A stretch of 64,000 nucleotides of DNA from Pseudoscleropodium purum (taxonomy: Eukaryota; Streptophyta; Bryopsida; Hypnales; Brachytheciaceae): NCBI GenBank assembly GCA_963969395.1, contig OZ017805.1, positions 1,860,001 to 1,924,000 of the forward strand, given 5' to 3'. Below the pieces are notes generated by a model that had not been told where the DNA came from, ran no database searches, and saw nothing but the letters and a program-made list of their open reading frames with translations. Position numbers and translations under genes: made by a program. The stretch's first letter is position 1, and every line of letters starts with the position of its first letter. Positions 1,578 to 58,802 of this stretch are shown piece after piece.

Positions 1578-1760
1578 CAGGGTTGACACGACGTCCGGAT
1601 GCAGACGTTGTGTCCGCAGCGTCCGCTGACATTTGCAGTCCCCTCGGACGCAGCGTCCATCGGGACCGCCTCGTCCGCCTGTCACCCTGTCCACTCCGTC
1701 CGCCCCGTCTGCTTTGACGGCCCTATTTCCCCCGACCGCCCTACCCAAACTGCCCTGCGC
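1578..1760 (+). repeat. Left terminal GC island of the large element
   Basis: The terminus CAGGGTTGAC is followed by a run rich in GTCCGC/CGGACG words and then by AT-rich DNA containing a short (AT)n run at about 1951-1972. The same arrangement occurs in reverse orientation at 58650-58794. hAT transposases usually bind short repeated words just inside the ends, so these repeated words are the likely binding region; that is inference. Confidence 0.7.
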
Positions 1761-2168
1761 TCACTCCCTTAATCTTTAAACAATTAAATGTTAAATGAAG
1801 TGCAATGGTTCGCGATTTGTCATTAAAACAATGTCTCTTATAAGTTGAAAGATTATAAAGTTTGACCATGAGTCCATGATAGTCTTGAAACTATGAAAAA
1901 ATTCCAATTCATTTTCAAAAGGCAAACTAAAAAAGTTTGTGACTTCAAATATATATATATATATATATATACTATTTAAAAAATCGAGATCAACACAAAT
2001 ACAAACATAATCAATATGGGCAAAATATATTCAATTTAATGTAGAATACCATACATTGTGCACATTTGGCTAATTGCACATATAATTTTTTTTATTCCAA
2101 CTCTATATTTCTAAACTAATTTTTAATGCCTATATAACCTATTCAACTACTACTTCTGTACTACCAAT

Positions 2169-3661: not shown

Positions 3662-3854
3662 CGTGACAAATGAAACTGATACTGATCAAATTTTTTAATT
3701 TAAAATTGAATTCACGCGTAAGTGTCCAAAAAATTGGCAACAAGGAGGCCCCAATAAACCACTCTTGCCTTGCCTCCGAAAGGAGCCAATGGAGGATGAA
3801 CCACCAAGCTCTTCGCTCCACCTTGCATTCACAAAGGGCAAAGCAAAAGTGACA

Positions 3855-4125
3855 ATGCGGATGGCCCGTCCGCCCGATCGGACGGGCCGGGGGTGGCGGA
3901 CGGATCGGCTGTCCGCCTCCCCGAAACCCTAAAGCCCCGTCCACCCGATCAGACGGCCACGGACAGACAAATCTGGCGTCCGCCCGATCGGACGGTCCGG
4001 GGGGGTGGACGCATCGGCCGTAATGGGGCGGACACGGCGGACGCCAGATCGGACGGACAGGGCGGACGGGGGTCTGGGCGGATAAGGCGGACGGGTACAA
4101 GGGCGAACGGGGCGGTTTGACCCTA
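3855..4125. repeat. Internal GC island 1 of the large element
   Basis: An abrupt GC-rich block of repeated GGACGG/CCGCCCGATCGG words lies upstream of the kinase-like pseudogene. It contains AAACCCTAA telobox-like words at about 3923 and at its outer edge (4126). It aligns with the island at 56288-56560 of the complete element. It is likely the kinase promoter region and a subterminal-type repeat; the protein frames across it are composition artefacts. Confidence 0.65.
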
Positions 4126-6850: not shown

Positions 6851-6899
6851 ATTTTTGAAATGTTACCGCTCTTTTTGAGTAGTAATGGCCTCATAGGAT

Positions 6900-7145
6900 G
6901 CACCAATGGACAGCTGGGCGGATGCCGTCAGCGGTCAGTGTTTAAGTGGGCGGGTCGGCTTGTCCAAAGCGCGGATGGTGTCGAAAGGCGAACAGTCCGG
7001 GCAGACGGTTGGGGCGGTCGGACGGGGCGACGAGCGGACGGCGCGTCCGCTGTCGAAACGGACGTCGTCGGTTCGCGCGGCGGACGCGAGGTTCAGGGCC
7101 GCTTAGCGCGGTCCGAGGTAGGTCCGACGGTGGACGGCTAGAAGG
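6900..7145. repeat. Internal GC island 2 of the large element
   Basis: A GC-rich block of GGACGG-type words sits about 210 bp upstream of the finger/RING reading frame. Interstitial telomere-like words lie just outside it on the left. It is a likely promoter and boundary island. The open frames through it are short, Arg/Gly-rich and not conserved as proteins. Confidence 0.55.
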
Positions 7146-7356
7146 GTGGAGTGACTTTCATTTCTTCTCACTTCAATTCTCCTTCGATGCCAAGTTGGAT
7201 GTGCTACTATTGCTTTTTGCGCTAGTTGCTCCTACGAGGTGGAGAGTTGGAGTCCTCTATCTTTTGTTACTGGGTTACGGTTGATGCCATCACTTGTGAC
7301 TATCACGTGAGATTTTTTTATTCACTTCAATTGGTTATTGAATCCAATTGACAATC

Positions 7357-10300
7357 ATGAACGGCAAAGGTGATCGAAATATGGATGGGGTGACTCCGGG
7401 AAGCGAAGCCAAGAAAATGAGCAAAGTGAAGGGGGCTACACATGACCTTCGGCTTGACATTTTAAATGACCCTACAATTAAAGCAGAGAGCGGGTGGGAA
7501 GATGAAGATGTGGAGTATTGGACATAAAAAATGTGCAGGACCTATGTTAAAATGTACCACATTGACAAGTTGTGGCCTCAGGAGTTGCACAAGAGTCATA
7601 CACGGGATTTTTGTTGTAAACCATGGACTTGCAACAACAAACATTTTGTCCATCGATCTACGGAGGTGTAGCGTGTTCTATTCGGAAACAAGCGCAGAAG
7701 CAAAGGCTATATTAATTATAGCGTGGTATATATGGTTTACGCCGAACTTATATTAGAGTGCAAGATTGATTGGAGCACGTTTCCGACAACAACAGCTTGC
7801 CTACTTCTACTGGAAGCCAATCAAAAGGACATTTCCGACTTGTACAATTCAGAGGGAGAAACAGAAAGAGTATTAAAAAATACTATTGAGGTGAAAACGG
7901 ATGGTGTGGAGAAAGCCTCAAATGTTGAAGAATTATGGTCTGTACAATCTTCAACAAAAGCAATCAATGAAAGCTCTTCAAAAAATGTGGAGAAAGATGT
8001 AGAGGCGCAGGAGGATGAAGTCTTTTTCACAGGTCCAACACGTTTGACCTTTACACCAAATGTTGCGGCACAAACACAAACAGAGTTTGTAAACGAAGGC
8101 AATGTTTGCACGGAATGCGGGGAAACTTCAAAAAGTAAAGTAGACGAAGTCTTGGCGGAGAAAGTGGCAAAGGCTAATGCTACAATTGATAGTCTGATAG
8201 CCAACAATTGTTTTGATAGTTTGGTCTACAAATCTCCGCCTATTCATCAAGGCGCTGAATCTAGTCTAGCGTTAAGTTTAGAAGACAAAGTACATACGCC
8301 TCGTGGACAAGGCGTGAGGATTGATAATATATCCTCATTATGGAGTTCCGAGCGTAAAAAACGGGCGGAGGAGTTTCCGTCTACAGTGTCATTGCTGAGT
8401 CCCCTACATTGAACCTTGCAAGACATGTCCAATCCAAAACAATTGGAAAATCTTTTGAAGCTCTCGGTTCAGTTTACTAACCTTCATGAAGAAATAGGCG
8501 GATTGTCTAACTCCGATGATGGTGCTACTGGTGTTCCAATGAGTCCACTTGCAGATCCAAAGAATGTTGCACATATACTTGATGCAGCTTTCAAGATGAC
8601 GATGTCAACTGAATTTTTAGCAAAAGTTGCTTCGACTTTTATGAATTTGGCCAAGGAGTTTTCTTTCATGGCACCAGAGATGTTGAAAGGTGCTATAGCA
8701 TTTCAGAATCTCACGAAGACGTTCGGACCACTTTTCGAAGAAAGAGATGCTCACATACTACAATTGGTGAAATATGAGAAGAAAATTGCTGACCTTGGAG
8801 GAGTGGAAGCAAGGAACAAAGTGTTGGAGTTGAAATTAAAGACTTTGGAGAGCGTGGTTGAACATTTAAATCAATAATCATCGAGGCAAATGGAGGAGTT
8901 GATGAAGATGCATAAACGGATTGCAGAATTATAAGGGACCTCCAAGAATCTGAATGAGGTTGCAATCTCACCAATGATTGTACTCGGAGACAGTCAAGAG
9001 ACTCAAAAGAGTGAAGATAAGCTCTCTCTTCCTTTTGATAAGGCCAAAGTAAGCGACAACCCTGCCATTGTGAATGTACAAGAAAGTCACGACATGAGCA
9101 TGTTAAAAGCGACACAACAACCATCAATGGAAAAGCTTTCATCCGTTTACGTGAATGCGGAGACGCAAACGGAGAGTTGTGACTTTGAAGAGTTGAAGCA
9201 TAAATTGGAGGAGGCAATTGAAGCAAAAGGAATCGTTGAATCTAAATTGAATCGATTGCAATTGTGCTTGGATTTGAATAAGTTTATGCCATCTAACGGC
9301 TTGGAGTCTCGATGGTTAGCATGGGTACAAAGACTCCAAGATAGACCCTTTGTAGTATCTCAAGCAATGACAGGTCTTCAAACATTGGCAATGGAGTCGA
9401 ATGAAAATTGCGATGCCATTCAAAACTCTTTGAGTTGGTTCAAGACTATATTTGGCCAACATCCTTCTAAAGGATATACGAAGATCACATGTTGGGGAGA
9501 CATGGATGCCATGTTTGAGCGGTTAAACCACACAAAGAAAGACCAAGTTCCATCCATCAATTGGGCCTTGGAAGTAGAGGAAGGATCGGTCCCTTACAAC
9601 ACACTTTCAGCACACATCAATGTGAAAGACAAGCCAGTGGTGCATGCTTGTGATCCAGCCTCTCCAATCTTGGATGGTTGTTGTAGCCTTTGCCAAGGCC
9701 TCTTTGGACGGGAAGGTGCGGTAACCATGGGCCAATGTCGCCACGCTTTCCATATCACTTGCATTGTGAAAGCATCACTCATTCGTTCGGTGTGTGCCGA
9801 GTGTCGTAGTCCATTGAGTGCTAGGTTCTACGAAATGTTTGGTATCTTGAGAGCTATGCGTCCAAGTCACGAGTACAATCGTTGGAATCTTCTTCTTGAT
9901 CAAGCGCCGTACAAATTCCAAAATTATCAACATTGGGGGAAGCCAATCCGGTAGAATGCAAATGAACAGAGGCATGATTTGTACGAGGAATCTCAGCAAC
10001 CATTGGATTTCGATGTGTGGATGACTCACAATAGAGAGGTGGAATTGCGGACTCGAGGAATCGTAGATGACGCGGCCCGTGAAATGTTTTGTCACAACAT
10101 GGGGGGACATTGGAGCTTGCAACACGAAAAGTTCTTTCGTTTTCCAGATAAAGAAGTGGAGAGAGGACCAAAAGACAGTTGGGTGGAGGTGAACCATGGA
10201 AAAGAGTTCGATGAGCAATATAAGGCATACGACCACACCCTCGTAGGTAGGGCCCTTCTATTGTCGAAGTTGGAAGAGGCTGCAAAAGTTCGTGCTGTCT

Positions 10301-10743
10301 ACGATACAAATGGACAAACAAGCACATGACATTCATCTATAGATGTGGCAGCAGCATTTGATAGGCGCATTGGCGATATTATAGGGCATTGGAAGGCTTT
10401 CCTATTGGATGGAGACTGCCTCACAGTATGGCAAGGGAAAAGAGATGATGAAGTTGTTCAAGTGATGGTAAATCGTGTGGAGAGCAACTTGAAAACCTTA
10501 AAGGCAGACGAAGTCGATTTATTACTGAAAAAAAAAAAAAAAAGGAAGCGTGAAGAGGACGATGAAATCTCTCTGGAAACCAAGAAACAATTTCATAAGG
10601 TGGACATCGAAGTTCAATCTGAAGGGCGAATAGTCCGTCCAAGTCAACAACGATCAACTCGTCAATCATCTGCTAAACTTCTCGGTACAGCAGATTTTTC
10701 TTTTGTTTTGGGAGAAGGTAGTGGCCCATCCGGTGAAAAGTAG
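7357..10743 (+). pseudogene. Finger/coiled-coil/RING protein gene, decayed
   Basis: One continuous reading frame of about 1,129 codons carries seven in-frame stops (7525, 7669, 8410, 8875, 8932, 9952, 10327) but no frameshift. Near residues 57-80 it resembles the zinc finger of the gene at 54431 (CRTYVKMYHIDKLW versus CKKYVKMTHIQKLW). The first stop falls exactly where the first zinc-ligand Cys should be. The middle is acidic with coiled-coil segments at about 8420-8930 and 9180-9260. At about residues 773-825 there is a complete RING-H2 pattern, CSLC ... CRHAFHITC ... CAEC, typical of E3 ubiquitin ligases. The C-terminus has a basic nuclear-localisation-like KKKKKRKREE run. The likely role is a transposon-encoded nuclear ubiquitin ligase. 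Its last 208 codons recur, open, at 52220-52846. Confidence 0.75.
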
Positions 10744-11040
10744 GATTTGAGGAGAATTAAGTTTTTTAAAAACAATGATGCTTTCATTGTTTAAAAACAA
10801 AAAAGAATGTGAAAGATTTAGATCTTAAAAAGATCGTATAGGATTCAATAGTAATATTGGAACTATGTTTTCATGTATTTTGTTTATACATATATATTTA
10901 TATATAAAGATGCTATATTTTCATTTGCGTATAAAAATATTTTTATATGTACATCTTATTTTACGTGGATGCATTCATTTTTGATTGTGTAACATTCAAA
11001 TTACATAACAATATAAAATTTTCTAATGACTAATTGCAAT
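10744..11040. other. 3' flank shared by both large elements
   Basis: AT-rich sequence follows the RING gene, with a polyadenylation-like setting and a TATATA tract at about 10889-10906. It is repeated in inverted orientation at about 51935-52219. In the complete element it leads straight into the right end; here it leads into GC island 3 and then the transposase module. Confidence 0.6.
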
Positions 11041-11180
11041 GCGAAGTCCGCCTCGACCGTCCTATCTATCCGCCCTGTTCGACTGCGCCGTCCGACTGCC
11101 CTGTTCAACCGATCGACCAACCGACCCGTCCGACCGACCATCCGGTCCGCCCGTCTGCTTCAGCCCCGTGCGCGCCGTTG
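11041..11180. repeat. Internal GC island 3 of the large element
   Basis: A block of CCGCC/CGTCC/CGACCG words lies between the RING and transposase genes. The AT-rich DNA before it, up to the AATGCGAAGTCC word, matches the complete element, where the same position passes directly into the right terminus. Downstream are two AACCCTAAA telobox-like words at about 11200-11220. Confidence 0.6.
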
Positions 11181-11486
11181 GTCGTTTTTGAATGTAAACC
11201 CTAAAATATGAACCCTAAATTTTCTGGAAGGGATTATAAATGTTAGAAGAGAAGCTTTTGTATTCACTCTCGAAAAACGGAATGCTAAGATTTCCAAGGG
11301 CTATGAGCTTCAATTTATTGTGTCTCTTGCTTGGTAATGCAGAGTTCGGTAGATGGGGGCTTTGATTTTTAAAGCTTTGTGTGACTAAATTCATTGATAT
11401 TGTATACATTGTTTCGTTGTGGGTTTCAAATTTAAAACATTATATTGGTTTCTTTTGAAATTGAGGTAAAACATATAGTTGTCAGT

Positions 11487-14400
11487 ATGAGGGCCAAACT
11501 GACGGGGGATTTTTCTCCTTGGTATAGTGTGGTACAGGATGGTAAAGTAGAATGTAAGCTTTGCAAGGCGGTCATGGCAAGGAAGCTCGGCCGTATGTTC
11601 AGCCACCTAGGCTATTATGGGCCTGGAAGTGTACGTGATAAAGGGGTGAGTCTTTATCCACGATTATCAATGGCAGTTCGAGATTTATTTCAGCATTGCG
11701 AAGGAGTTTTTCCAAAACGCGTTGTAATGGACAATGTGGATGGCAACACTGGCCCTTCAAATGTCCAAGAGTTTTCGGCTGGAAAGGCTGTGTCGCATTC
11801 TGACCACGAAAACTCTTGTCCAGCGTCCAAAGAATTGGTATCAATGGTATGTGCCACAACTGAAATGACTTTGAATACGAAAGTTTCTGGTGAACGTGAA
11901 ACCCCAAGGGCATCAAGTTCTAGGCCTCAGAGGCAAGGTAGCTTAGTGAATGGGTTTGAAGAAGGTCATAGACGCAAATTACATTCAGTGTGGGCAAATT
12001 TTATTTATTCGGCGAACATACCATTTTTCGTGGCTCAAAATCCAGCTTTTAAAGAAGCAATGAAGAAAACGGCTGCGTTTGGTAGGCCATACATTCCTCC
12101 CTCATACCACGACCTTTGGTACAAATTGTTGAATGAGGCGAAGACCAACATTTAGACATAGTTGAATGCGTGGACTGAAAATAGCATTTGAAAATTTGGA
12201 GCAACATTGTCCATTGATGGATGGAGCTCAGTGACTAATCGACCTCTCATCAATGCCATGCTTGTATCATCCGCAGGTGAAGAATTTCTTGGATCTGTGG
12301 ATACAAGTGGTTGTGAAAAAAATACGGAGTACTTGGCAACTGTGTTGGAAAAGTTCATTGAACAAGTGGGGTCCAAGAACGTCGTGTTAATAACTATGGA
12401 TAATGCTCCTGTGAATCCGTCCGCATGGGATGTAATATCTGCAAAATATCCTCATATTTTTTACCAAGAGTGCGTGGTATATGCATTGAATTTGTTGAAG
12501 GATTGGACTACATAGAAATGGATTGCTTCCAAATTGGATAAAGGAGTTCTTGTAGCTAAATTTATCAGGAAGAGACATATGCCGCTAGCTCTATTGCAAA
12601 AGTATTCGCCAAATCTTAGTCTCTTAATGTCTGGGGATACAAGATTCGCCTCTAAATTTATCATGATGGAGCGTTTGACAAAATTGAGAGGAGCATTGGA
12701 ACAAATGGTGGTAGATCCGCAATGGGTTGAGTATGTATATACTCTCAAGAAGAAACGTGGAGCCAAAGTCCAACCTTTTGACTTGGCCTTAGCGGTGAAG
12801 AAAATTGTTCTTGATGACCATTTTTGGAATCGGTCCATCAATTATGTGGAGATGGTTGAACCAATCATATGTGCACTCCGCGATTTCGATTCAAAATCAC
12901 CATGTATGGGAAAGGTGTTGCATATCATGAGGAAGTTAGAGAAGCACGTGAACGGATTACAAAGTCCACCATTTTGTTTGCTAGAAGAACTTGCAATTCC
13001 ATTGGTACAGTTTTTTTATGCCCAAAGAAAAATGGTACACAATGATCTCCAATCAGCCGCAGCTCTTTTAAATCTATACCTTCTTCATCACAAAGAGCTA
13101 GCGGATGACGCAGATGCAATGTCAGAATGTAAGAAAGTTTTGGAGAGAATATGTAAACCGGATGAATATACACTAGTGGTGAACGAATTTGTGGCTTTTC
13201 GACACAAGGAACCTCCATTTCACAATATGTTGAATCCGGACGAACAAATGTTGTCCGCGCATGCTTGGTGGGATTTTGAAAGTGCATGTGGCAAGTTTAT
13301 AGCTCCATTAGCGAAGAGGATATTGGCTCAACCGGTGTCATCATCTTCATATGAACGGAATTGGAGCAATTATTCTTTTGTTCACAACAAATTTCGAAAT
13401 AAATTGAAGCCGGAGAGAGCAGCGGATTTGGTGTACGTGTATACCAATTCCAAAGTATTAAACGCATCAAAGGAAAAAGATGAAAAAAAATGGTATAATG
13501 ATAATGTGGATCCAATGGAATCAGAGGATTCAGATAGGCCGACGTTAGAAGTCGATGATGACGAGGATTTGGAAAGGGCCCTTTTAGTTGTAGATGGCGG
13601 GGATGATTTCAATCGTGCGACAGCGTGGGGAGATGAAGACGTTATATAAGACTTTCCCGATTTGGTGAATGATACGCATGATTATCATCTAAACCGCAAG
13701 GATGTTGTTCCCAACAATGCAAACGATGCATATACCTTTTATGAAGACGAGGACAATGTAGGGGTACAGGAGAATCTACCTTCTTTAACTGCATATTGCA
13801 ATGGAATGGGATACTTGAATAGCGAAAACATTCTATCGGGAAAGGCAAACGCTATTGCCAAGGAGGTGAAAATCAATGAAAATGCTATTGGTGATGATGG
13901 GAGAAATGAAAAAATTCTAATTTTTCAATCTCCATCTGTAGTATTAAATGTAGTGCAAGGAAACGACAAAAGAGAAGATGCGGTCATGGAGGTGGACGTT
14001 CCAAAAGATGTAGACAACAATAGTGGTAATGAGGAGGAACCAAATATTGCGGAACAGAAAAATAGTGATTCAGTTGGGATGGTAGTCACAAATTCGGCAA
14101 TTGTGAAGAGTGATAAAGGAAAGAAGCCAATGAAGTCAATTTTTGAAGTACCGAGATCTAGTGCTCTTCCACCAATACCGTTGAAGTCTGTTAGCACACG
14201 ATTGAATGATTCTCAGAGCTTTGGATATGGGGAACACCTAATGAACATTTCCAAAGAAATTTCTACAGGCGGTAATCTACGGAAAGTAGCGTCATCACCT
14301 ACAAGCCTAAGTGATACGGATAGTGATCGAATGCCATTGGCATCTTTGCGTGCTCGCATTTTAGGAAAAGGAATGGCGCAAGAACCCATCAAATCAACAA

Positions 14401-14836
14401 ACGGCACTCTATTACTTCAAAGAAAGCCAAAGTGGAGATAACCGTTCATGGACATGTCGACCCTACATCGAGATTGATGGTTTAAGAATCGAGTAAGGTG
14501 AAAGCGAAAAGAGAAATGCAACCTTTTGCTATCTTTCCAATGAAGAATAGGACCCCTCTTGATGAAAATGTTGTTACTTTGTCAAATAGAAAAAAAAAAA
14601 GGTTCCTATTCAAAAAGCCTTTAATCGTTTTGTCAAAGTAAAAAAAAAAATTAAATTTGAAAGAAGGGAGTAAACCTACTTCGAGAGAAGACTTGAAGGA
14701 GACAACGATACTTGATTCCAATAATGAAGATGACTCCGACAATGAAGATGACTCCGATAATGAAGATTTTGAATGGAGAGCTATAGGACAGAGTAGTGGG
14801 GCTGAGGTTAAAGGAGATGTAGATTGGCGTCAATAG
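11487..14836 (+). pseudogene. hAT-family transposase with acidic C-terminal extension, decayed
   Basis: A cut-and-paste transposase. The frame from ATG 11487 has a BED-type finger near residues 28-50 (CKLC ... FSH). Next comes the DUF659/RNase H-like region with SIDGWSS (Asp at about 244) and ITMDNA (Asp at about 305). The hAT dimerisation region follows at about residues 590-660, with SSSYERNWS (catalytic Glu at about 623), RNKL and LVYVY. In-frame stops fall at 12153, 12159, 12189, 12513 and 13647, all without a shift. After 13647 the frame runs on as an acidic, low-complexity tail. A shift to another frame near 14400 lets it continue, with two more stops (14483, 14639), through a repeated NEDDSD motif to TAG 14834. 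The tail is about 390 codons, unusual for the family. No transposase module exists in the element at 51730-58794. Confidence 0.85.
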
Positions 14837-15179
14837 AAATTGTGGAGATGTGAATTTAGATGTTTGATTGTTTAGTTGCTCATGATATATGGAGCTCATG
14901 TTGACAAATGACAATGGTTTCTTCAATCATTTTATTATAAAATTGTTTGTTTATTGATGATATACATCTCGCTGGATTTTAAAGTAATTTTGTTTCTAAA
15001 TCAAAATGAAATTCAACAAAAAAATTAAAAATATATTTCATATTTTAGCTTTTACATAAATAGTGATATACAACTCTATTGAATTGCAATTGCAATATAA
15101 GAAAAATCAAAATCCAAATGACTTCACTCTCAATCTCTCATTGGTGAAAACAATCAAAACAAAAAACCCAAAACGGGTT
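14837..15179. other. AT-rich 3' flank of the transposase gene
   Basis: No gene is seen. The sequence is AT-rich and runs from the transposase stop to the right terminal GC island; it presumably holds the polyadenylation region. Confidence 0.4.
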
Positions 15180-15337
15180 TTCTAAGCCGCCCCGTCTATC
15201 CGCCCCACTAGTCCGCCCCGCCCCACGCGTCGGCCTTCCAACGGCGGGAGAGACGCTGCGTCCGCTGGCGTCCGTGAGGACGGACGTTCGGGTTACGGAC
15301 GCTATTTTGGAACGGACGTAGAGATTCGTCAAGCTTG
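15180..15337 (+). repeat. Right terminal GC island of the large element
   Basis: GC-rich words (CCGCCCC, GGCGGGAGAGACG, CGGACG) run up to the terminus GATTCGTCAAGCTTG. This is closely similar to the right ends of the small elements at 16496 and 17049 and to the inverted 51730-51935 block, including the shared GTCCGTGAGGACGGACGT word. Confidence 0.7.
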
Positions 15338-16495: not shown

Positions 16496-16791
16496 CAGGG
16501 TTGACAGGACAGTCGGACGTCTGGACGCGGACGCTGTATTCGCAACGTCCGTTGACATTCGTGGACGTCGTCCGCCCTGTCCGCCTGTCCCCCCGTCCGC
16601 TCGGTTACGGCCATTCGATCGACATGCGGACTGACCTGGTCTACATGATCTGGGTGTCCGCCTCGGGCCGTCCGCCCCGCCCGTCCGCCTTCCGACAGCG
16701 GGAGGGATGCTGCGTCCACTAGCGTCCGTGAGGACGGACGTCCAGGTTACGGACGCCTTTTTCGAGCGGACGTAGAGATTCGTCAACCTTG
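16496..16791 (+). mobile_element. Miniature hAT-type element 1 (296 bp)
   Basis: It begins CAGGGTTGACAGGACAGTCGG and ends CGTCAACCTTG. It is flanked by perfect 8-bp duplications CTAATATC at 16488-16495 and 16792-16799. Its left part resembles the left end of the large elements and its right part their right end, so it looks like an internally deleted, non-coding derivative. It sits in the MSH4 relic. Confidence 0.9.
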
Positions 16792-17048: not shown

Positions 17049-17305
17049 CAGGGTTGACAGGACGGTCGGACGTTCAGACGCAGACGCTGTGTCCACAGCA
17101 TCCGTTGACATTCGCGGACGCTGTCCGCCCCGGCCCGCCCTGTTTTCCTCGTCCGCCCCACCCCGCCCGCCCTGTCCGCCCCGCCCCACCCCGCCCGTCC
17201 GCCTTTTGACGGCGGGAGGGACGCTGCGTCCGCTGCCATCCGTGCGGACGTACGTCTGGGTTACGGACGCCTTTTTCAGGCGGATGTAGAGATTCGTCAA
17301 CCCTG
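17049..17305 (+). mobile_element. Miniature hAT-type element 2 (257 bp)
   Basis: It begins CAGGGTTGACAGGACGGTCGG and ends GATTCGTCAACCCTG. The flanking octamers TGCTTTAG (17041-17048) and TACTTTAG (17306-17313) match at seven of eight bases, a slightly aged target-site duplication. The GC-rich body has the same left and right halves as element 1, in the same orientation. Confidence 0.88.
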
Positions 17306-29503: not shown

Positions 29504-29723
29504 CAGGGTTGACGAATCTCTACGTCCACCCGAAAAAGGCGTCCATAACCCAGACGTCCGTCCGCACGGACGCTAGCGGACGCAGCGTCTGAAGGCAGAC
29601 GGGCAGGGCGGGGCGGACGGGTGGGGCAGACGGACGGGGCGGGGCGGACGGGCGGACGGCGTCCGCAAATGTCAACGGACGCTGCGGATACAGCGTCCGC
29701 GTCCGGACGTCCTGTCAACCCTG
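29504..29723 (-). mobile_element. Miniature hAT-type element 3 (220 bp)
   Basis: It begins with the family right end CAGGGTTGACGAATCTC and closes with the left end GACGTCCTGTCAACCCTG, so it is inverted relative to elements 1 and 2. Perfect 8-bp duplications ATTGAAGT lie at 29496-29503 and 29724-29731. It has a GC-rich body of GGACGG words and no gene. Perfect ends and duplications suggest a recent insertion. Confidence 0.92.
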
Positions 29724-34790: not shown

Positions 34791-37002
34791 CATGGTTGAT
34801 AGGGCATTCGGACGTTCGTGGACGTTGAATGCGGACACTAGGTCTTCAACGTCTCGTGACATTCGTTAATTTTAAAATTTACTAGAAGGTAAATTTGCAT
34901 TTGTAGTGGCTTCCATCTTGATTGTATTTGTCGAGCCATCTACCCCAACCGCATCTACTAGGTCGTCTGCCCTGATCGCATCGCCGAGCTGACTATCATG
35001 ATACAACTATCTGATTGAGCAAATAATGTAGCATCTGCTTGATTTGATGGCTACAACATGGTAGATGACCATCTAGCAAACAACTCAGTAGACACGTATA
35101 GATAGACAACTTGCAAGCAACTTGGCAGACGCGTATGGGCAAATGGCTCCTCAGAAGGCAGTCACGCAAATGCCATTCAAAACCAACAAAAAACTTCTTT
35201 TGTCATTTTCCATTTGAGTTTTTGGATTTTGGAGGCGTGTAATATACCATTGGAAAAGTCTTGGAAATACCTTTCTAATGGTATATTACACGCCCCCAAA
35301 CTCCAAAAACTCAGATGGAAAATGACAAAAAAAGGTCACAGCAAATGCATTCAAAGTGTCACAGCAATTGTCTATCCAACCGTCCGCTGGGCAGACAACC
35401 TTAAAAAGGAGAAAAAAACTCCATTTGCCATTTTCAACCTTCTTTTTTGGAATTTTGAGGCATTTTAATATACCATCAAAAAGGTCTCAAAAATACCTTT
35501 CCAATGGTATATTACATGCCCCTAAACTCCAAAAACTTAGATGGAAAATGGCAAAAAAAAGTTACAATAGATGCATTTTAAGCTTTACAACAATTGTCTG
35601 CAATTGGGTAGAGAGGTGGATTTTTGAACGAATAATTTGAAGCTTCAAGTATGTTTGCTAGAAGTGTATATTTTGTGTCCACCCGTCCATTCGTTCACAT
35701 AGCCATCTACTTGGTATATGGGTGGACTGTTGGGCGGATGGGTTGATGAAGGAGTTCAAAACTTCATTTGGCATTTGTGACCTCAATTTTTGGAATTTGA
35801 AGGCGTGTAATATACCATTGGAAAGGTCTTGGAAATAAATTTTTGACAATATATTACAGGCCTCTAAATTCTAAAAATAAAAAGTGGAAAATGACAAATG
35901 AAGCTAGCTGCAAGTGCATAGTGAGTTTTGCCCTATTGTTTTGTTGGATGTCCCTCATTTATTAAAATATTGGATTCAAGAAAGTACAGGTTTGCATCTA
36001 GACTTTATTTAATGCTACTTATATTCAATGTATCATGCATGTATAAATATGTAATTCATGTAAATTTCTACACATTTGAAATTGCAAATTCTATTACCTA
36101 AACCCTAATGTTAAATTTTACATTACTTTAAATTTTTTTTTAAATATTGATGCAAGGTACAGAATATATTTGACCTTCAATTTTGTTTAGATGAGATTAT
36201 TAGAAAGTACTACATATATAAATCCCAAAGACTTAATTTTTGATGTTTTGAATGTGATTTTGTTTTTTCAAATGGACGGTTGGGTAGACAAAATGTGACG
36301 CTCAAAATGCATTTGCTATGACCTTTTTTTGTCATTTGCAATCTGAATTTTTGGAGTTTGAGGACATGTAATATACAATTGAAAAGGAATTTCCGAGACC
36401 TTCCAATGATATATTACATGCCTCGAAATTCCAAAAATTGAGGTTACAAATGGCAAATGAAGTTTTTTGCTCTTTCATCAGGTCATCCTTTGAGCCATTC
36501 ATCTATCCGCTAAGTGGACAATTGGGCAGACAACTATTGTGATGCTCAAAATGCATTTGCTATTATTTGTTTTGGTCATTTGCAATTTGAGTTTTTGGAG
36601 TTTGTAGGCATGTAATATACCTTTGGAAAGGTATTTCTGAGACCTTTTCAATGGTATATTACACACGTTGAAAATCTATAAATTGAAGTTGCAAATGAAA
36701 AACAAAGTTTTCGGCTAGTTTGAAATGGATGTCTACGCAACCGCTTTCTGCTTGATTGCCATCCGCATGACCGCCGTTCACCAATCCATCTACTCTTTTG
36801 CCATTCACTGATCTATCCGCCCGACCATTGCTCATAGATTTGTCTGCCAAATTGTTCGCCAAGTGTCGTTTATTTGTCCAGTTTACCTTGGGTAATTTTG
36901 GGGGTGGCTATTTTACCCCCTTGTGGCCATTGTGACCGTTGATTCTAGAAGTTTGGGATTTGGATGTAAATTTCCCTTGCATATTCTAATTCGTCAACCT
37001 GG
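34791..37002 (+). mobile_element. Old 2.2-kb hAT-type element with palindromic interior
   Basis: The left end CATGGTTGATAGGGCATTCGG and following words track the family left end. The right end is AATTCGTCAACCTGG. Perfect 8-bp duplications TTTTGGTA lie at 34783-34790 and 37003-37010. The GC-rich end blocks are largely converted to TG/CA-containing words (for example CCATCTACCCCAACCGCATC), fitting deamination of methylated C. There is no transposase; the interior holds five palindromes. Confidence 0.85.
35198..36710. repeat. Five imperfect palindromes of about 135-150 bp
   Basis: Each copy has a left arm of GTCATTTGCAATTTGAG-type then GGCGTGTAATATACCATTGG, a short loop around GGTCTTGGAAATACC, and the inverted right arm. 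The copies are at about 35198-35331, 35417-35562, 35759-35903, 36321-36464 and 36564-36710. Decayed GC-rich words fill the gaps. A transcript would form serial hairpins. Confidence 0.8.
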
Positions 37003-42498: not shown

Positions 42499-42766
42499 CA
42501 TGGTTGTCATAACGGGCGAGTTAGGGTCATCGGACGGACGGTCCGGACGGCTTTAATTTTGTAACTTATGCAATTTTGCGGAATGACACGTCACCTTGTC
42601 CGCGCCCTGACGATCTCGTCCGCACCCAGCATGTTCTTTAATCCACATAGCATCCACGTGGCCTATTTTTCCGTTATCAGAAAGTCAACTATGTGTTGAT
42701 TGTATCGGATGGGCGGGACCTCTAATGGACGGGCGAACCAGACGTCCGTCCACTATGACAACCATG
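42499..42766. mobile_element. Miniature element with CATGGTTGTCATA ends (268 bp)
   Basis: The two ends are perfect 13-bp inverted repeats, CATGGTTGTCATA. The flanking octamers CACTTTGT (42491-42498) and CACTTAGT (42767-42774) match at seven of eight bases, fitting a hAT-type duplication. The body is rich in CGGACGGACGGTCCGG-type words like the CAGGGTTGAC family but has different termini, so it is probably a related subfamily. Confidence 0.8.
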
Positions 42767-51720: not shown

Positions 51721-51729
51721 TCTATACTT

Positions 51730-51935
51730 CAGGGTTGACGAATCTCAACGTCCGCCCCAGAATAGCGTCCGTTTTACGGACGTCCGGACGCACAGACGCT
51801 AGTGGACGCAACGTCCCTCCCGCCTTCGGAAGGCGGACGCGTGGGGCGGGGCAGACAGCCGGGGCGGTCAGGCGTACAGACCAGACAGGACGGACGGACA
51901 GGGCAGACGGGGTGGACTTCGCATTGCCATTAGTC
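51730..51935 (-). repeat. Right terminal GC island of the complete element
   Basis: The terminus and GGACG words match the right end at 15180-15337. Here it joins directly to the RING gene 3' flank, without the transposase module. Confidence 0.75.
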
Positions 51936-52219
51936 ATTAGAAAATTTTATATTGTTATGTAATTTGAATGTTACACAATCAAAAATGAATGCATCCACGT
52001 AAAATAAGATGTACATATAAAAATATTTTTATACGCAAATGAAAATATAGCATCTTTATATATAAATATATATGTATAAACAAAATACATGAAAACATAG
52101 TTCCAATATCACTACTGAATCCTATACGATCTTTTTAAGATCTAAATCTTTCACATTCTTTTTTGTTTTTAAACAATGAAAGGACCATTGTTTTTAAAAA
52201 ACTAAATTCTCTTCAAATC

Positions 52220-52846
52220 CTACTTTCCACTGGATGGACCACTACCTTCTCCCAAAACAAAAGGAAAATCTGTTGTACCGAGAAGTTTAGCAGATGATTG
52301 ATGAGTTGACCGTTGTTGACTTGGACGGACTATTCGCCCTCTAGATTGAACTTCGATGTCCACCTTATGAAATTGTTTCTTGGTTTCCGGAGAGAAGTCA
52401 TCGTCCTCTTCACGCTTCCTTTTTTGTTTTCTTTTCAGTAATAAATCGACTTCATCTGCCTTCAAGGTTCTCAAGTTGCTCTCCTCACGATCTACCATCG
52501 CTTGAACAACTTCATCATCTCCTTTCCCTTGCCATACTGTGAGGTAGTCTCCATCCAATAGGAAAGCCTTCCAATGCCCTATAATATCACCAATGCGCCT
52601 ATCAAATGCTGCTGCCACATCTACAAATGAATGTCTTGTGCTTGTTTGTCCATTTGTATCGTAGATAGTACGAACTTTTGCAGCCTCTTCCAACTTCGAC
52701 AATAGAAGGGCCCTATCTATGAGGGTGTGGTCGTATGCCTTATATTGCTCATCGAACTCTTTTCCATGGTTTACCTCCACCCAACTGTCTTTTGGTCCTC
52801 TCTCCACTTTTTTATCTGGAAAATGAAAGAACTTTTCGTATTGCAA
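52220..52846 (-). pseudogene. RING-gene 3' fragment
   Basis: This is an open frame of 208 codons equal to the C-terminal part of the RING gene (10123-10743). It has the same basic KRKQKRKREEDD run, a QQRST-x(2)-SSAKLLG stretch and the FVLGEGSGP-like end. The RING domain, finger and coiled coils are deleted. The codon at the position of stop 10327 is AGA here, showing that the stop in the large element is a later change. No ATG precedes it in frame at the deletion junction, so it may be untranslated or fused to upstream transcription. Confidence 0.8.
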
Positions 52847-53966
52847 GAATGCATCTTGCTCCTTCCTTTTAATCCTTTTGATATTTTCTTTTTTTTCCTT
52901 TTTTTCCTGTCTCGTAGGGCTCTTGTTCTCTTGTTCTCTTCATTTGACCAGCCTATTTGGCTTGGCTCTTAGTTTTTGTTTTTTTAATGCAATGGTTTAT
53001 GCATATGTTATAAAAAAAAATTATTTATTTAAAATTAATATATTGATGAACAAACGCATAAAGGCATTGAATGCTTTCACATTTAAAGTTATAAATCTAT
53101 CATAAATCACTCTTGCAAATTTGAATGATTGAATCGAAAATTTGAAAATGTAATTACAAGAGCTTTCAATTCAATCAATTGCATAAATCATAAATGTTGA
53201 AATGCAACTCGTATGAGTTTAGCATCTATAAAGATTAATTCATGCCATCCACATGCAATTTTTCAATTTAATAAAATGCAATTGAGTACTTCAATTTCTT
53301 TCCCTTCAATTCTCCATGTAACATTCACTTCATATCTTTCTCTATTTGTTTATCTATTTTTTGGGAACAAATGGAGAAACCATCTTTGTCTATATTTGAA
53401 CATGCACTCTTATTTGATTGATGAAGAATAGATCTATGAAATATATAATCATTGATTTGTTCATGTTGATTTATCTAATATATTTTATGTATGTATATAT
53501 ATATATATATCATTAAAGGAGTATGGAAGACAAGATTGACAGATTGTATTCAAATGTTGTTGATTTTGAAATGATTTAGTACTATATCATTTATAAGAAT
53601 ATTATAATAGTGTTATGTTATAATATTCTTAAAACAATTGCAACAAATATTAAAATACATGCTAAGTTAGGTTTGTTAGCCTACCAATTGTTCATTAATA
53701 GATATAATTGAGTAGCCCTCTTAAATGAAACATTCAATATCTAATATCTTACAATCCAAATGGTGGATTTGTCTAAAAATTTTTCTACATCTTTTCCAAC
53801 TAATTTACTACAAGATCCTACGGTTACATATGCCCCAAAGTATTTTTCTTCTAAGACTTGATATTTGCACTACTATTGGCAGTTTTGAAGTGTTTTTAGT
53901 GAAAAGAACTTTAGGGGTTAAACATCTATACCATGAGATCTTGAAAAAAGAACAATTTGCTTCATT
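52841..53966 (-). repeat. AT-rich spacer shared with the large element (inverted)
   Basis: Inverted copy of 4522-5650, ending at the TTGCAAG deletion junction. It carries no gene; the short frames inside are not conserved as proteins between the two copies. Confidence 0.75.
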
Positions 53967-53984
53967 AGGTTTAGGGTTTAAGAT

Positions 53985-54225
53985 GAGCCGTCCGCCTTGT
54001 CCGCCCGGTCCGCCCCGTCCGCCCCATCCGCTTTGATACCCGTCCGCCCCGTCCTCCGTCCGTCCTGTCCGTCCGATCCAGCGTCCGTCCTCTCCCCCCC
54101 GTTCGCCCCGATACTCGTCCGCCCCGGTACGGCCGTCTGATTGACACGCGGACTGATGTAGTCTGCATGATTTGGACGTCCACCTCGGGGCGTCTGCATA
54201 TATATATGGGAAGGCGGACGGCTCA
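53985..54225. repeat. GC island upstream of the finger/YGS gene
   Basis: CGTCCGCCCCGTCC-type words run up to a CATATATATATGGG stretch at 54198-54211 that could serve as a TATA box for the gene at 54431. A GGTTTAGGGTTTA telobox word lies at its left edge (53967-53980). It contains GACTGATGTAGTCTGCATGA-type words also found in small element 1 (16630-16660), showing common origin with terminal GC blocks. Confidence 0.6.
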
Positions 54226-54430
54226 TTCCGAACAATCGTTCTCTTTTGGAGTGGGCGGACCAGTGCATTGGAAGCTCTGCATGCCCCTTTCGCTTTGAGT
54301 GAACGATTGTTGTGGCATTGTTACAAATTTTCACAAAGTTCACGCTTGTAAAATTTTAATTAATTGATTAAATCAAAATTTTGGTTCTTAAGCTTTCTAA
54401 TTGTTTCATTCTCTTTGCTTCGGCTTCATC

Positions 54431-55693
54431 ATGCCGAAAGATAGAACACCCAAAAAAAGTAGTCGAAAGGGAAGACCCCAATTGTTCAATTGGGATGCTT
54501 CGGCCGATCTATTGTGCATGGGTGAACCGAGATGGAAAGAGGAACCAACAAGAGTGTGGGATTGCTCAATGTGCAAGAAGTATGTAAAAATGACTCACAT
54601 TCAAAAACTTTGGCGACATGAACATGTAGAGCACCAAGCGCCATGTTGGGAAGGACAAATGTCTATGTGCCAAAGTGAGCACTTCAAACAACGATACACA
54701 CAAGTGCATCGAGTTCTTGGCATTAAAAGTGCCAAACCAAATATAATGAATTATAATGTTATGGCAATGGTTTGGATAGAGATTGTACTCCACAAGGACG
54801 TGGACTGGCGTACCGCTACAGGTCGCAATGTGGAGAACTATACGCGCACGGATGCCGTTATAGATACACAGTGGAGGGGTGCAAGCGATTGTATGCCAGA
54901 GTGGTCCAATCGAGGTTATCTACAACAACCTTCAGTTGTTCTACGAGATGTTGAAGATGCATGGACAGATGACGATGATGACGATGATATGCAAGCGCCT
55001 GTCACATTTGGAGTTAGGCACGAGCAGGTAGAAGAACGAGAACGAATTGAATTCGAACAACAAATGCAAGAGGCAACACGCAGAAGCCTTCAAGATCGTG
55101 GATGGCAAGATAGGCATGGTGGGTCCTACAAACGTGAATATGAAACGCGAGGATCTGAACAAAGAAGAGGTGATTCATACTCTGGTTACAATCCTCAAAA
55201 TAGATATGAAGGTGGAAGAGGGAGCTATGGATCCACGCATTATGGTGGTTCAAATGCAGTTGGTTCTCATTATGGCACTCCCCCTGAAATTGGCTCTCAA
55301 GGTGGAGAAGGTAGCTATGGCAATACGCACTATGGTAGGTCTAGTGGATCTGATTCATATTATACTACACCCACTCAAGTGGGCTTCGAAGGTAGTGGAG
55401 GAAGCCATGTAACCCCGTAGTATAGTTGCTCTCTTCACCAAAGCGCCCAATACTATCCGGGATCAACTAGAAGTGATTCATATGGGCATCATGGGGCCTC
55501 TTATTATGGGGCTTCAAATGAAAGAGAATCAGAGCCTACTACTCCGGTTCCTCCTCCTCCTTTTGCAGGTTCAAACTATGGACAAGGAGGTACACCAAGT
55601 AGATATCACGGAAACTACGGAGGTGGTCCGTTCATTGGAGTACAAGGAAGAGGCACCGGTCAACAATTTGAGTCCGATTCAAATTCCGAATAA
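54431..55693 (+). CDS. Zinc-finger protein with Tyr/Gly/Ser-rich tail (one in-frame TAG)
   Basis: A frame of 420 codons from ATG 54431 to TAA 55691 is interrupted once by TAG at 55418. The same composition continues in frame for 90 codons beyond it, so the stop looks recent. An in-frame upstream ATG at 54401 would add ten residues; MPKDRTPKK is the more natural start. A BED-like finger lies at residues 45-68, CSMC then KYVKMTHIQKLW with His 56, 63, 65 and 68. An acidic DDDDDDD run is at about residue 185. A charged Glu/Arg segment follows, and then a long tail with repeated SYG-x(2)-HYG, prion-like in composition. The finger resembles that of the RING gene. The likely role is binding of the element's DNA, with assembly through the tail; that is inference. 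The large element at 1578 lacks this gene. Confidence 0.75.
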
Positions 55694-56287
55694 AAAAACA
55701 TGCAAGTATATAGTGAGCATGTATTTGCTCAATTTTCTCATTTTTATTTTTACGACAAGTATAGAGCACTAGATTCGTAGAAGTAGTACAAAATTTTAAA
55801 TGAATAGAACAATTTTGAACAACAATTTTGTTCACTTTTTCAAAAAGTGTTATGTAATAGTGTACACCAAGTATGTATGTAGGCAAGCATATTGTTGAAG
55901 ACATCATTGTATTATTTTATAATAGCGTTGATGTATAAAACTATAAGCGACTTTGATAAATAATAAAAATATGAAGAAGAAATGTAATTTTGTAAGAGCC
56001 ATATTATGTCTATTTTTGAATTTAGCATTCGAGGTTAAATATGTACTAGCATGGTGTGTATTTTGAAATTATTGTTGTGTATTTATTACATTTAGAAACT
56101 CGTAAATGGTATAAATGTAATTCTAATTAATTTATGAAAGATTGAATTATTTGAATATTTGAAATTTTTTTATTTTTCATTCAACGATTGCTAAAAACTA
56201 AATTGATTTCTTATTGGTATGAAGAAATGCCCAAATTAGACAATTAGTGGTTTTTCTTTAGATTCTATTTTCAAATATGGAAAATAA
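55694..56287. other. 3' flank of the finger/YGS gene
   Basis: AT-rich, with AATAAA at 55962-55967 as a possible polyadenylation signal. Not present in the large element, so it belongs to the YGS module. Confidence 0.45.
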
Positions 56288-56560
56288 ATCGGATCGGGCG
56301 GACGCTTGATTTGTTCGCCCGTGGCCATCCGATCGGGCGAACGAGGCTCGAGGGTTTCGAGGAGGCGGACGGCCGATGCGTCTGCCACCCGCAGCTCGTC
56401 CGATCGGGCGGACGCCAGATTTGTCCGCCCGTGGCCATCCAATCGGGCGGACGGGGCTCGAGGGTTTCGGGGAGGCGGACGGCTGATGCGTTCGCCACCC
56501 CCGGCCCGTCCAATCAAGCAGACGGTTTGGGGCCATCTGATGGGGCGGACGGGTCGTCCG
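56288..56560. repeat. GC island with exact 110-bp tandem period
   Basis: Two and a partial third copy of a 110-bp unit start at 56291, 56401 and 56511. Each opens with CGATCGGGCGGACG and passes through GGCTCGAGGGTTTCG to GCCACCC. The large element has the same kind of island at 3855-4125 with a less regular unit. It lies about 200 bp upstream of the kinase-like ATG and is the probable promoter region. Confidence 0.75.
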
Positions 56561-56754
56561 CATTGTCACTTTTGCTTTGCCCCTTATGAATGCAAGGTAG
56601 AGTGGAGAGCTTAGTGGTTCATCCTACATGGGCTCCTTTCCAAGGCAAGGCAAGAGTGGTTTATTGGGGCCCTTGTTGCCAAATTTTTGGACACTTGCGC
56701 GTGAATTTAATTTCAAATTAAAAAATTTGATCTATATCAATTTCATTTGTCACG

Positions 56755-58248
56755 ATGCCGAACGGGAAGAAGAAGGTTGCAAAGCTAAAACATGGAGAGG
56801 GACCATCAAACTTGGAGGTAGCTCGCCAAAGTCCCTCAGAAGAATGCAAAAAATTCATGATCGAGCGCATCGTTCAATTTTATGAATCAGAAACAACATT
56901 GTCTTTAGACAATAAGTACATCAGATATCAAAAGGAGTGCGTGTCTAAATTCAAGGTAGACATGACACAGATGTTGTTGGATGCATTGAATGTGGTGAAG
57001 TGGCATGACGAAATGCATAAAACGTACTTCACCAAATGTTTGGAGAACAAGGTTCATGACGATTTGTGGAATTCCAAAGTCATTTTGGTTAAATATGGCA
57101 AAGAATATCGACCCAATGACGCCCAGTTTGAAGAAGTGATTTTGAAAGCGGACTTGTTTAGGGGGCGATGTGCTCCATTCACCAAAAAGCACAATCGAGT
57201 TAGTTCGATTAATTGGTGGAAAAGCAATGATGGAGTTGCTGAAGCGGAAAGGACCAAACGGCACCTCATAGCACTTCCAGATACAGCATGCGTGATTGCT
57301 GTTGATGATAGAACGATGAGAGGTGGATATGCAACGATTCGAAAGGTTCGTATTGAAGGATGTCCAGGAATACTTCCTTATTGGGAGTTTGCGGCAAAGA
57401 AATTCATTCACCACCAAACTCGACCCGATCTTGCAAAGTTAGAACATCAAAACGAATCAATGGCTGTTCGAATTCCACACGCGGGTGTGATACGGTTTGC
57501 TACAGTGCACAGAACGACATGTGAAGGTTATGCGTATTGGTGGAATGGTGGAACTCTTCGACAAATGTTGAATATGGATAAGGACTATCCAGACAACATT
57601 CAAATCCGTTTGATGTATACGAATCCAACCGAAGAGGAGGTTGTAAAAGCTCACCGTTTAGGGCGATATCGGAAGAAGCGCACAGAGCTAACATGGATGT
57701 TTATGCATATAATGTATGCAGTGCATCTTGTTGGACATTTGCACAATGATCTTTCTTCGGACAACATCTTGTTGCATTTTCCAGTAGATGAGTCACATGT
57801 GTACATTGGAGTTTGCGATTGGCGCATGACCACCTTAACTTCTCAGCCAATGAAGTCTTTGTATACATTCACATCAGCAGATGAGATGAAACAAACTTTG
57901 CAGAGGAGATGGTGGGTGGATCCACGTATTGCATATTTGCATAAAGCACGTGCAGATGTGGAAGCCATTCTGATGTATTCACGTAAGTCGGAAGAGTATG
58001 CCATTCGAAAAATTGCTTGGCGGATGAATGGAAACAACATGTCAGAGGCGTATTTCAACTTTCTACGAAAAACACCTAGTGTGACACAATTTGCCTTTCA
58101 TGACTTTGCAAAAGTGTTTTATGCTTACTTGAAGCGCATTTCTTCGAAGACTGACGATGAAAATACTAGTTTGGCCCATGTGATTACACGATTTTCTAAT
58201 ACATATCGTTGGCCGATGCCAGATGAACATTTCCGCCATTTATATTAG
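56755..58248 (+). CDS. Transposon-borne protein-kinase-like protein
   Basis: Intact intronless frame of 497 codons, ATG 56755 to TAG 58246. Kinase signatures lie in order. There is a glycine-rich segment RGGYATIRKV (residues 189-198), a lysine motif FAAKKF (Lys 215), and a catalytic loop HNDLSSDNILL with Asp 332 and Asn 337, where the usual Arg of HRD is Asn. The metal-binding Asp 355 sits in VCDW, where the DFG phenylalanine and glycine are replaced. The first 180 residues are charged and unassigned; no transmembrane segment is seen. The catalytic Lys, Asp, Asn and Asp are kept, so weak kinase activity is possible, though DFG loss often marks pseudokinases. A decayed second copy lies at 2169-3661. 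It could act on the transposase or on host silencing factors; that is inference. Confidence 0.8.
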   Translation: MPNGKKKVAKLKHGEGPSNLEVARQSPSEECKKFMIERIVQFYESETTLSLDNKYIRYQKECVSKFKVDMTQMLLDALNVVKWHDEMHKTYFTKCLENKVHDDLWNSKVILVKYGKEYRPNDAQFEEVILKADLFRGRCAPFTKKHNRVSSINWWKSNDGVAEAERTKRHLIALPDTACVIAVDDRTMRGGYATIRKVRIEGCPGILPYWEFAAKKFIHHQTRPDLAKLEHQNESMAVRIPHAGVIRFATVHRTTCEGYAYWWNGGTLRQMLNMDKDYPDNIQIRLMYTNPTEEEVVKAHRLGRYRKKRTELTWMFMHIMYAVHLVGHLHNDLSSDNILLHFPVDESHVYIGVCDWRMTTLTSQPMKSLYTFTSADEMKQTLQRRWWVDPRIAYLHKARADVEAILMYSRKSEEYAIRKIAWRMNGNNMSEAYFNFLRKTPSVTQFAFHDFAKVFYAYLKRISSKTDDENTSLAHVITRFSNTYRWPMPDEHFRHLY

Positions 58249-58649
58249 ATTGGTAGTGCAGAAGTAGTAGTTGAATAGGTTATATAGGCATTAAAAATTA
58301 GTTTAAAAATATAGAGTTGGAATGAAAAAAATTATATGTGCAATTAGCCAAATGTGCACAATGTATGGTATTCTACATTAAATTGAATATATTTTGCCCA
58401 TATTGATTATGTTTGTATTTGTGTTGATCTCGATTTTTTAAATAGGATATATATATATTTGAAGTCACAAACTTTTTTAGTTTGCCTTTTGAAAATGAAT
58501 TGGAATTTTTTCATAGTTTCAAGAATATCATGGACTCATGGTCAAACTTTATAATCTTTCAACTTATAAGAGACATTGTTTTAATAACAAATCGCGAACC
58601 ATTGCACTTCATTTAACATTTAATTGTTTAAAGATTAAGGGAGTGATCG
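58249..58649. other. 3' flank of the kinase-like gene
   Basis: AT-rich, inverted counterpart of 1761-2168, with a shorter (AT)n run at about 58448-58457 than at 1951-1972. Confidence 0.6.
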
Positions 58650-58794
58650 TGGGGCAGTTTGGGTAGGGCGGTCGGGGAAAATAAGGCTGTCAAAGTGGAT
58701 GTTGCGTCCGCCGGGACTGCGAATGTCAGCGGACGCTGCGGACATAACATCTGCATCCGGACGTCCCGGACGTCCAGACGTCGTGTCAACCCTG
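58650..58794 (-). repeat. Left terminal GC island of the complete element
   Basis: The GC-rich block ends CGTCGTGTCAACCCTG, matching the inverted left end at 1578-1760. It has an extra CCCGGACGTCCAGACG repeat close to the terminus and a deletion relative to 1640-1700. Confidence 0.7.
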
Positions 58795-58802
58795 CTATAC
58801 TT

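Follow-up and report, generated by a model that had tools for sequence, protein, structure and literature searches.

How does a transposon that encodes no transposase come to carry long genes of its own, and does it keep them for a reason? hAT elements are commonly portrayed as carrying a single gene and as having defective relatives. The question is raised by element B, a 7,065-bp insertion at positions 51730-58794 of a 64,000-nucleotide window of the genome of the moss Pseudoscleropodium purum (contig OZ017805.1, here C49:1860001-1924000; coordinates given without a contig are those of the window). A first-pass annotation had read this insertion as a hAT-type element enclosing kinase-like, finger/YGS and RING-derived genes. 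From a search of the 313-Mb host genome, we show that element B belongs to a hAT family with a two-class architecture, in which class I elements carry a transposase and the kinase while class II elements carry the RING gene, the YGS gene and the same kinase. The cargo genes of the copies read bear signs of constraint, and we consider it fairly probable that a class I transposase moves both classes while the cargo proteins serve the element.

The ends and gene content first described for element B were all recovered. The terminal inverted repeat (TIR) CAGGGTTGAC is exact at 51730-51739 (+) and 58785-58794 (-), and CTATACTT stands directly outside both ends (51722-51729 and 58795-58802) as a perfect 8-bp target-site duplication; this 10-mer occurs in 8 exact copies in the window, against 0.09 expected. 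After the left TIR comes GAATCTCAACGTCC, the left-end signature of class II; the TIR opens a G+C-rich subterminal repeat region (51730-51885, CGTCCG/CGGACG motif). Reading inwards, the RING-gene fragment lies on the minus strand at 52220-52842 (right limit approximate) and comprises the C-terminal ~206 codons, the RING domain itself being deleted. Part of a central block common to both classes, apparently non-coding, follows at 52847-53969. G+C-rich linker repeats at 53987-54250 and 56290-56560 mark the module boundaries on either side of the finger/YGS gene (54431-55693, plus strand, 420 codons), which has an N-terminal finger-like domain and a C-terminal half rich in Gly, Ser and Tyr. This gene, which the annotation had not called intact, has one in-frame TAG at 55418-55420 (codon 330), private to B among 24 aligned copies. 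The kinase-like gene, called intact, is indeed open from its ATG at 56755 to 58248 (plus strand, 497 codons) and has an HNDL..DN catalytic loop; it reads D-W-R in place of D-W-G, and its product may therefore be impaired. No transposase was found within 51730-58794, so the assignment of element B to hAT is by its ends and kinship only.

The kinship is provided by six sibling elements read whole. Class I elements are ~10 kb long (T1, T2 and T3; 10,004, 9,851 and 9,977 bp) and carry a hAT transposase on the minus strand and the kinase on the plus strand, with no RING or YGS match. Both frames are open in T1 (L037), whose transposase is a single open frame matching DUF659 (8.2e-32) and Dimer_Tnp_hAT (8.2e-9). 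Class II elements (L031+L032, L033+L034 and L035+L036; 11,651, 11,873 and 11,833 bp) carry the RING gene (minus), the YGS gene (plus) and the kinase (plus), with no transposase between their ends. Target-site duplications are perfect in all three class II elements read whole (GTTTTATA, TTGCATAT and GAAAATAG) and in two of the three of class I (CCATCTTG and TTTGAGAG); with element B this makes six of eight gene-bearing elements, the duplication being absent in T3 and in the window's second element, A. The TIR is found at both ends, with one left-end mismatch in L035+L036 and in T2 and a decayed left end in A. Among the elements read, the left end differs between the classes by a single base (GAATCTCT in class I, GAATCTCA in class II), and the class I form recurs in element A and in short relatives. 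G+C-rich CGTCCG repeats stand at element ends and at module joints. In all nine class I by class II pairs, similarity is 92.7-93.7% over the central block (~2.5 kb when full-length) and 94.3-95.5% over the kinase block. Beside L035+L036 lies a diverged transposase fragment whose decay made it unusable as a probe.

Set against L031+L032, element B proves to be a class II copy that has lost ~4.5 kb internally, across the RING gene: the sequence between element positions 1132 and 5632 is missing, and the junction, at 52838-52847, shows a 7-base stretch shared with element A (CTTGCAA/TTGCAAG microhomology). Element B is ruled out as the typical form, the three class II siblings being 11.7-11.9 kb long with a full-length RING gene.

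The class II trio had been picked for stop-free kinases and T1-T3 for a transposase ~5 kb from the kinase. Thirty kinase loci chosen purely on score, the window's own copy included, form a better test of the classes, because this picking rule makes the whole-read sets partly uniform by design. Upstream of the kinase, 16 of these loci have the YGS gene and 14 a class I spacer; none has both and none has neither. Among the matches listed for 86 kinases, an opposite-strand transposase lies upstream of 11, YGS upstream of 18 and the two together upstream of none, and RING lies upstream on the opposite strand in 22. On the copies read, the two-class architecture is all but certain. The annotation's observation that a transposase is lacking stands for copy B and fails for the family, since the sister class, which shares its ends, central block and kinase, has one; a family without transposase is ruled out by the class I elements and by element A. 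Its view that the genes are a family cargo and not a one-off capture is borne out by their recurrence in other full copies with these ends, alongside which gene-less short elements also exist.

A full separation of the kinase classes by descent was also considered and rejected: on the best tree the class label has to change 3 times, and well-supported branches force at least 2 of these changes. Two near-identical kinases, L004 and L006 (C42:21646168 and 21662596), lie 16 kb apart in opposite orientation, one beside YGS and the other beside the class I spacer, and perhaps record a recent conversion or exchange between classes.

The annotation had also placed a second kinase copy in a different element of the window. 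The copy exists (2169-3661, minus strand; 4 in-frame stops and a 1-bp deletion), but its host, element A (1578-15337, opposite in orientation to B), is a decayed relative of the same family that holds a hAT transposase. Its right-type TIR CAGGGTTGAC is at 1578-1587 (+), and its left TIR at 15328-15337 (-) is decayed (GTCAAGCTTG on the plus strand) and has the class I signature GAATCTCTACG; its outer flanks do not match and show no target-site duplication. Between them lie, beyond the kinase, a class I spacer occupying the YGS site (4025-4519, minus strand), a RING gene that is full-length though decayed (7357-10743, plus strand; finger-like N-terminus, RING-H2 at about 9679-9807, 7 in-frame stops), and a hAT transposase decayed by in-frame stops (11487-14833, plus strand), in pieces of which Pfam recognises the DUF659 (3e-23) and Dimer_Tnp_hAT (1e-8) domains. 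Because the RING block alone matches class II, while the other modules, the spacer and the left end match class I, element A reads as a mosaic, namely a class I element, now decayed, with a RING gene in addition. At a second site, C49:4385421-4390262, RING and transposase adjoin as they do in element A.

The family is present in at least a hundred copies. Genome-wide, the CAGGGTTGAC 10-mer occurs 3361 + 3359 times on the two strands, against 146 + 118 for a reversed-pattern control, and the 24-base left end with at most one mismatch, a probe that takes in class I, class II and short relatives, occurs 970 + 989 times against 0 + 0. A first look gave 1540 candidates for the kinase (86 scored), 951 for the transposase (109), 1288 for YGS (122) and 705 for RING (119), the unscored candidates not being confirmed copies. 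Among the scored kinases, 30 of 86 are without in-frame stops and 56 have them; the 30 kinase loci read are spread over 11 contigs. Inverted pairs of hits with identical scores, mostly 7-70 kb apart, were seen in element genes (C49:6071590(+)/6082279(-), C46:391725(+)/405720(-), C42:7175628(+)/7186655(-) and C48:9792631(-)/9809904(+) are examples of such pairs) and in host genes alike, including light-harvesting genes at C40:38314137(-)/38329663(+). They represent either palindromic duplications or an assembly artefact. For one of the light-harvesting genes, nearly every relative of solved structure bears the name chlorophyll a/b-binding protein, many with the label 'chloroplastic'.

Most kinase copies keep a glycine-loop-like motif, AAKK, the E, HNDLSPDNILL and D-W-G; among 31 aligned copies, HLHNDLSPDNILLHF is exact in 26, D-W-G in 27 and the E of HQNE in 28. 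At E <= 1, the Pfam families Pkinase (best 4.9e-5) and APH (best 0.0035) each match 14 of 16 stop-free kinase copies or parts, and the copy in element B itself has no Pkinase or APH match at this threshold. Against solved structures, the best match of a kinase profile is to CaM kinases, over the catalytic loop (E 0.015). Structure models of the kinase reached mean predicted local distance difference test (pLDDT) scores of only 37.2 and 33.0. A search of viral contigs for relatives gave no pattern match, and the 16 pattern matches in prokaryote genomes included none that was confirmed. The RING gene of element A matches six RING-type models at E 7e-5 to 3e-3, none of them reaching its curated cut-off; read by eye against the RING-H2 zinc-ligand rule, its translation shows C-x2-C...C-x-H-x2-H-x2-C...C-x2-C, a full ligand set that is absent from element B. 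The YGS protein has no Pfam match. Its N-terminal ~130 residues, which have a C-x2-C and histidines of finger type, are related to those of the RING gene (score 193; the highest of 500 shuffles was 53), and G, S and Y abound in its C-terminal half. The N-termini of RING and transposase show no such relation (score 41, shuffle maximum 51).

Whether these genes are maintained was asked from their substitutions, as the annotation had proposed. Changes were split into C>T/G>A and other changes, and into singletons and changes shared by at least two copies, with omega computed for each class. The neutral rates, which rest on just 440 non-coding sites, are 0.43-0.46 events per site for C>T/G>A and 0.01-0.06 for other changes. 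Parallel hits are common in the C>T/G>A class because identical stops recur across copies, as at kinase codon 268, where the same stop is found in 6 of 31. Singleton C>T/G>A changes are neutral in all three genes (omega 1.02 in kinase, 1.00 in YGS and 1.01 in RING), a pattern that marks decay following insertion and at the same time checks the method. Shared non-deamination changes, by comparison, show constraint in the copies read of every cargo gene: omega is 0.32 in the kinase (15 non-synonymous and 13 silent changes, p 0.004, 31 copies), 0.32 in YGS (11 and 11, p 0.011, 24 copies) and 0.43 in RING (20 and 13, p 0.020, 11 copies). Furthermore, the majority kinases of classes I and II differ at 19 codons, 12 of them silent and 7 not (omega 0.22, p 0.0014), with no fixed difference between the classes. 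The expectation of purifying selection thus holds for shared non-deamination changes, and the outcome of other tests is weaker.

Several results weigh against maintenance. When all shared changes are taken together, omega rises to 0.59 in the kinase (p 0.0006), 0.71 in YGS (p 0.044) and 0.85 in RING (p 0.36), and for shared C>T/G>A changes it is 0.72, 0.79 and 1.09, respectively. Non-deamination singletons give 0.43, 0.97 and 0.70 for the same three genes, the transposase 0.66 (p 0.06, 4 copies), and elements A and B alone 1.18 for the RING tail and 0.50 for the kinase. None of the class II copies read has all three frames open. Copies without a premature stop number 0 of 11 for RING, 15 of 24 for YGS and 15 of 31 for the kinase; B and all three whole-read class II elements have a premature stop in YGS, and the best RING copy, in L031+L032, has as its sole stop a TAA at codon 57 that is common to 7 of 11. 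The selection analysis of kinase and YGS drew on copies from the top of the protein-match ranking, and of the 20 YGS copies retrieved, 17 had been recorded as free of stops. Such best-match sampling is biased against stops and possibly against amino-acid changes, and the stop counts of YGS and kinase are therefore not used as evidence of selection. The RING copies were not picked by RING similarity (8 of 20 located places were read, and L070, only partial, was dropped), and here p is just 0.02 from 11 copies.

Codon 57 of RING merits a separate remark. The 11 aligned copies read TAA in 7, TCA in 3 and TTA in 1, and in L031+L032 a frame of 1,075 codons is open after the TAA, with further stops in L033+L034 and L035+L036. 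The TAA perhaps marks a subfamily with an early stop that uses a downstream start.

Taken as a whole, this evidence leads us to favour a two-class family whose cargo helps the element. The class I transposase would cut both classes in trans, at their shared ends and G+C-rich subterminal repeats; this trans-mobilisation seems likely. The finger-bearing RING and YGS proteins would bind family DNA through their common N-terminal domain, probably at the CGTCCG linker repeats, and the kinase, which both classes encode, could act with either partner set. Together, RING, YGS and kinase might promote the family's expression or transposition, for example by countering silencing or by regulating the transposase. 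We lean slightly towards such a pro-element function, whereas anti-silencing in particular, suggested by analogy, seems rather unlikely as the specific activity. A helper role of the cargo would explain how selection kept the genes of the transposase-less class. Each copy, once inserted, decays, mostly by C-to-T change. A stronger version, in which class I gives the transposase, class II gives RING and YGS needed by both to be expressed or to move efficiently, the kinase is common and the classes are mutually dependent, much as the parts of a segmented genome are, strikes us as improbable.

The alternative that survives best concerns the origin of the classes rather than the function of their genes. 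The two may be independent deletion derivatives of one autonomous four-gene element (transposase, RING, YGS and kinase) and not partners, an account that is compatible with either a helper or a passenger role for the cargo. Element A, with transposase, RING and kinase in one order, fits such an ancestor, as do the second transposase-RING neighbour pair at C49:4385421-4390262 and the meeting of modules at G+C-rich linkers. However, the YGS place of element A holds a class I spacer and not a YGS scar, and the element has a class I left end, so that it reads as a mosaic; no four-gene copy was seen, and among the matches listed none of 86 kinases has both transposase and YGS. We regard a common four-gene ancestor as a possibility to be entertained with some doubt.

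Somewhat less credible is the view that class II is simply a very successful non-autonomous (Pack-type) derivative whose genes hitch-hike, with apparent constraint arising from a few master copies or from best-match sampling. Neutral C>T/G>A singletons in all three genes, stops in 56 of the 86 scored kinases, the lack of any RING copy without in-frame stops among 11, an all-change omega for RING not different from 1 and the presence of the same ends on gene-less relatives are all as hitch-hiking would predict. It is less easily reconciled with constraint on shared non-deamination changes in three genes, RING included although RING was not sampled by RING similarity, with a kinase kept in both classes whose class differences are mostly silent (12 silent to 7 non-synonymous codons), or with the N-termini of YGS and RING, which are related yet diverged while their frames persisted. 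That the element is instead a vehicle for domesticated host genes is very unlikely in spite of some open frames and constrained changes, given 30 kinase loci on 11 contigs, stops in 56 of 86 scored kinases, genes placed between element ends in all six siblings read whole and no fixed host locus found, though none was specifically sought.

How a family of this kind relates to known systems can be judged from three comparisons. VANDAL21 is a Mutator-like element. Its Arabidopsis representative Hiun encodes VANC, which binds motifs often found in tandem repeats and removes methylation from its own elements (PMC5735166). Both systems are DNA transposons with accessory genes, and the repeated G+C linkers may parallel the motifs of VANC; VANDAL21 belongs to a different superfamily, and the portions of that account available to us name no kinase or RING gene for it (PMC5735166). 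The maize hAT system Ac/Ds is closer in kind: as described in the part of the source we drew on, Ac has one transcript and one transposase, and Ds elements are deletions, fillers or carriers of gene fragments, with an 8-bp duplication, short inverted ends, subterminal repeats and transposase-less deletion derivatives (PMC3260210). All four of these features recur in the moss family, and the internal deletion of element B is ordinary and comparable to Ds deletions of Ac (PMC3260210). Unlike what is set out there for Ac/Ds, the transposase-less class here holds two further long genes and a third common to the transposase class. Finally, Pack-TYPE elements, Pack-hAT included, are non-autonomous TIR elements that capture and shuffle host coding DNA, and in maize form hAT clusters of over a hundred, according to the sections available (PMC8903248). 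Class II likewise has coding DNA between TIRs and no transposase, and copy number alone does not set the moss family apart, because the maize Pack-hAT clusters exceed a hundred (PMC8903248). It differs from Pack-TYPE elements, as far as that source portrays them, in that the copies read repeat one fixed set of genes, which shows signs of constraint and has one member in common with the transposase class. Titles and abstracts of the open-access literature revealed no hAT family of this kind, which is weak evidence, as subscription papers and repeat databases lay outside it, and the novelty of the two-class family is accordingly provisional. If the helper reading is correct, selection is able to preserve helper genes even in an element without a transposase of its own, and the family could be used to test how plant transposons escape silencing or regulate their own mobility, perhaps through phosphorylation and ubiquitin ligation.

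The window also contains three short, gene-less relatives on the plus strand that have the ends of element B and 8-bp duplications, two perfect and one mismatched. They lie at 16496-16791 (TIR mismatch at one end, duplication CTAATATC), 17049-17305 (TGCTTTAG/TACTTTAG, one mismatch) and 29504-29723 (ATTGAAGT). Because such elements carry the same ends, the ends alone do not imply cargo. An Rfam scan of the window returned 0 matches. A 2.2-kb element-like stretch at 34791-37002, with CATGGTTGAT ... GTCAACCTGG as its related ends, contains inverted repeats, is flanked by the perfect repeat TTTTGGTA and is possibly a diverged family. A shorter element-like stretch at 42499-42766, with ends CATGGTTGTC and flanks CACTTTGT/CACTTAGT, shares the G+C-rich motif of the family described here.

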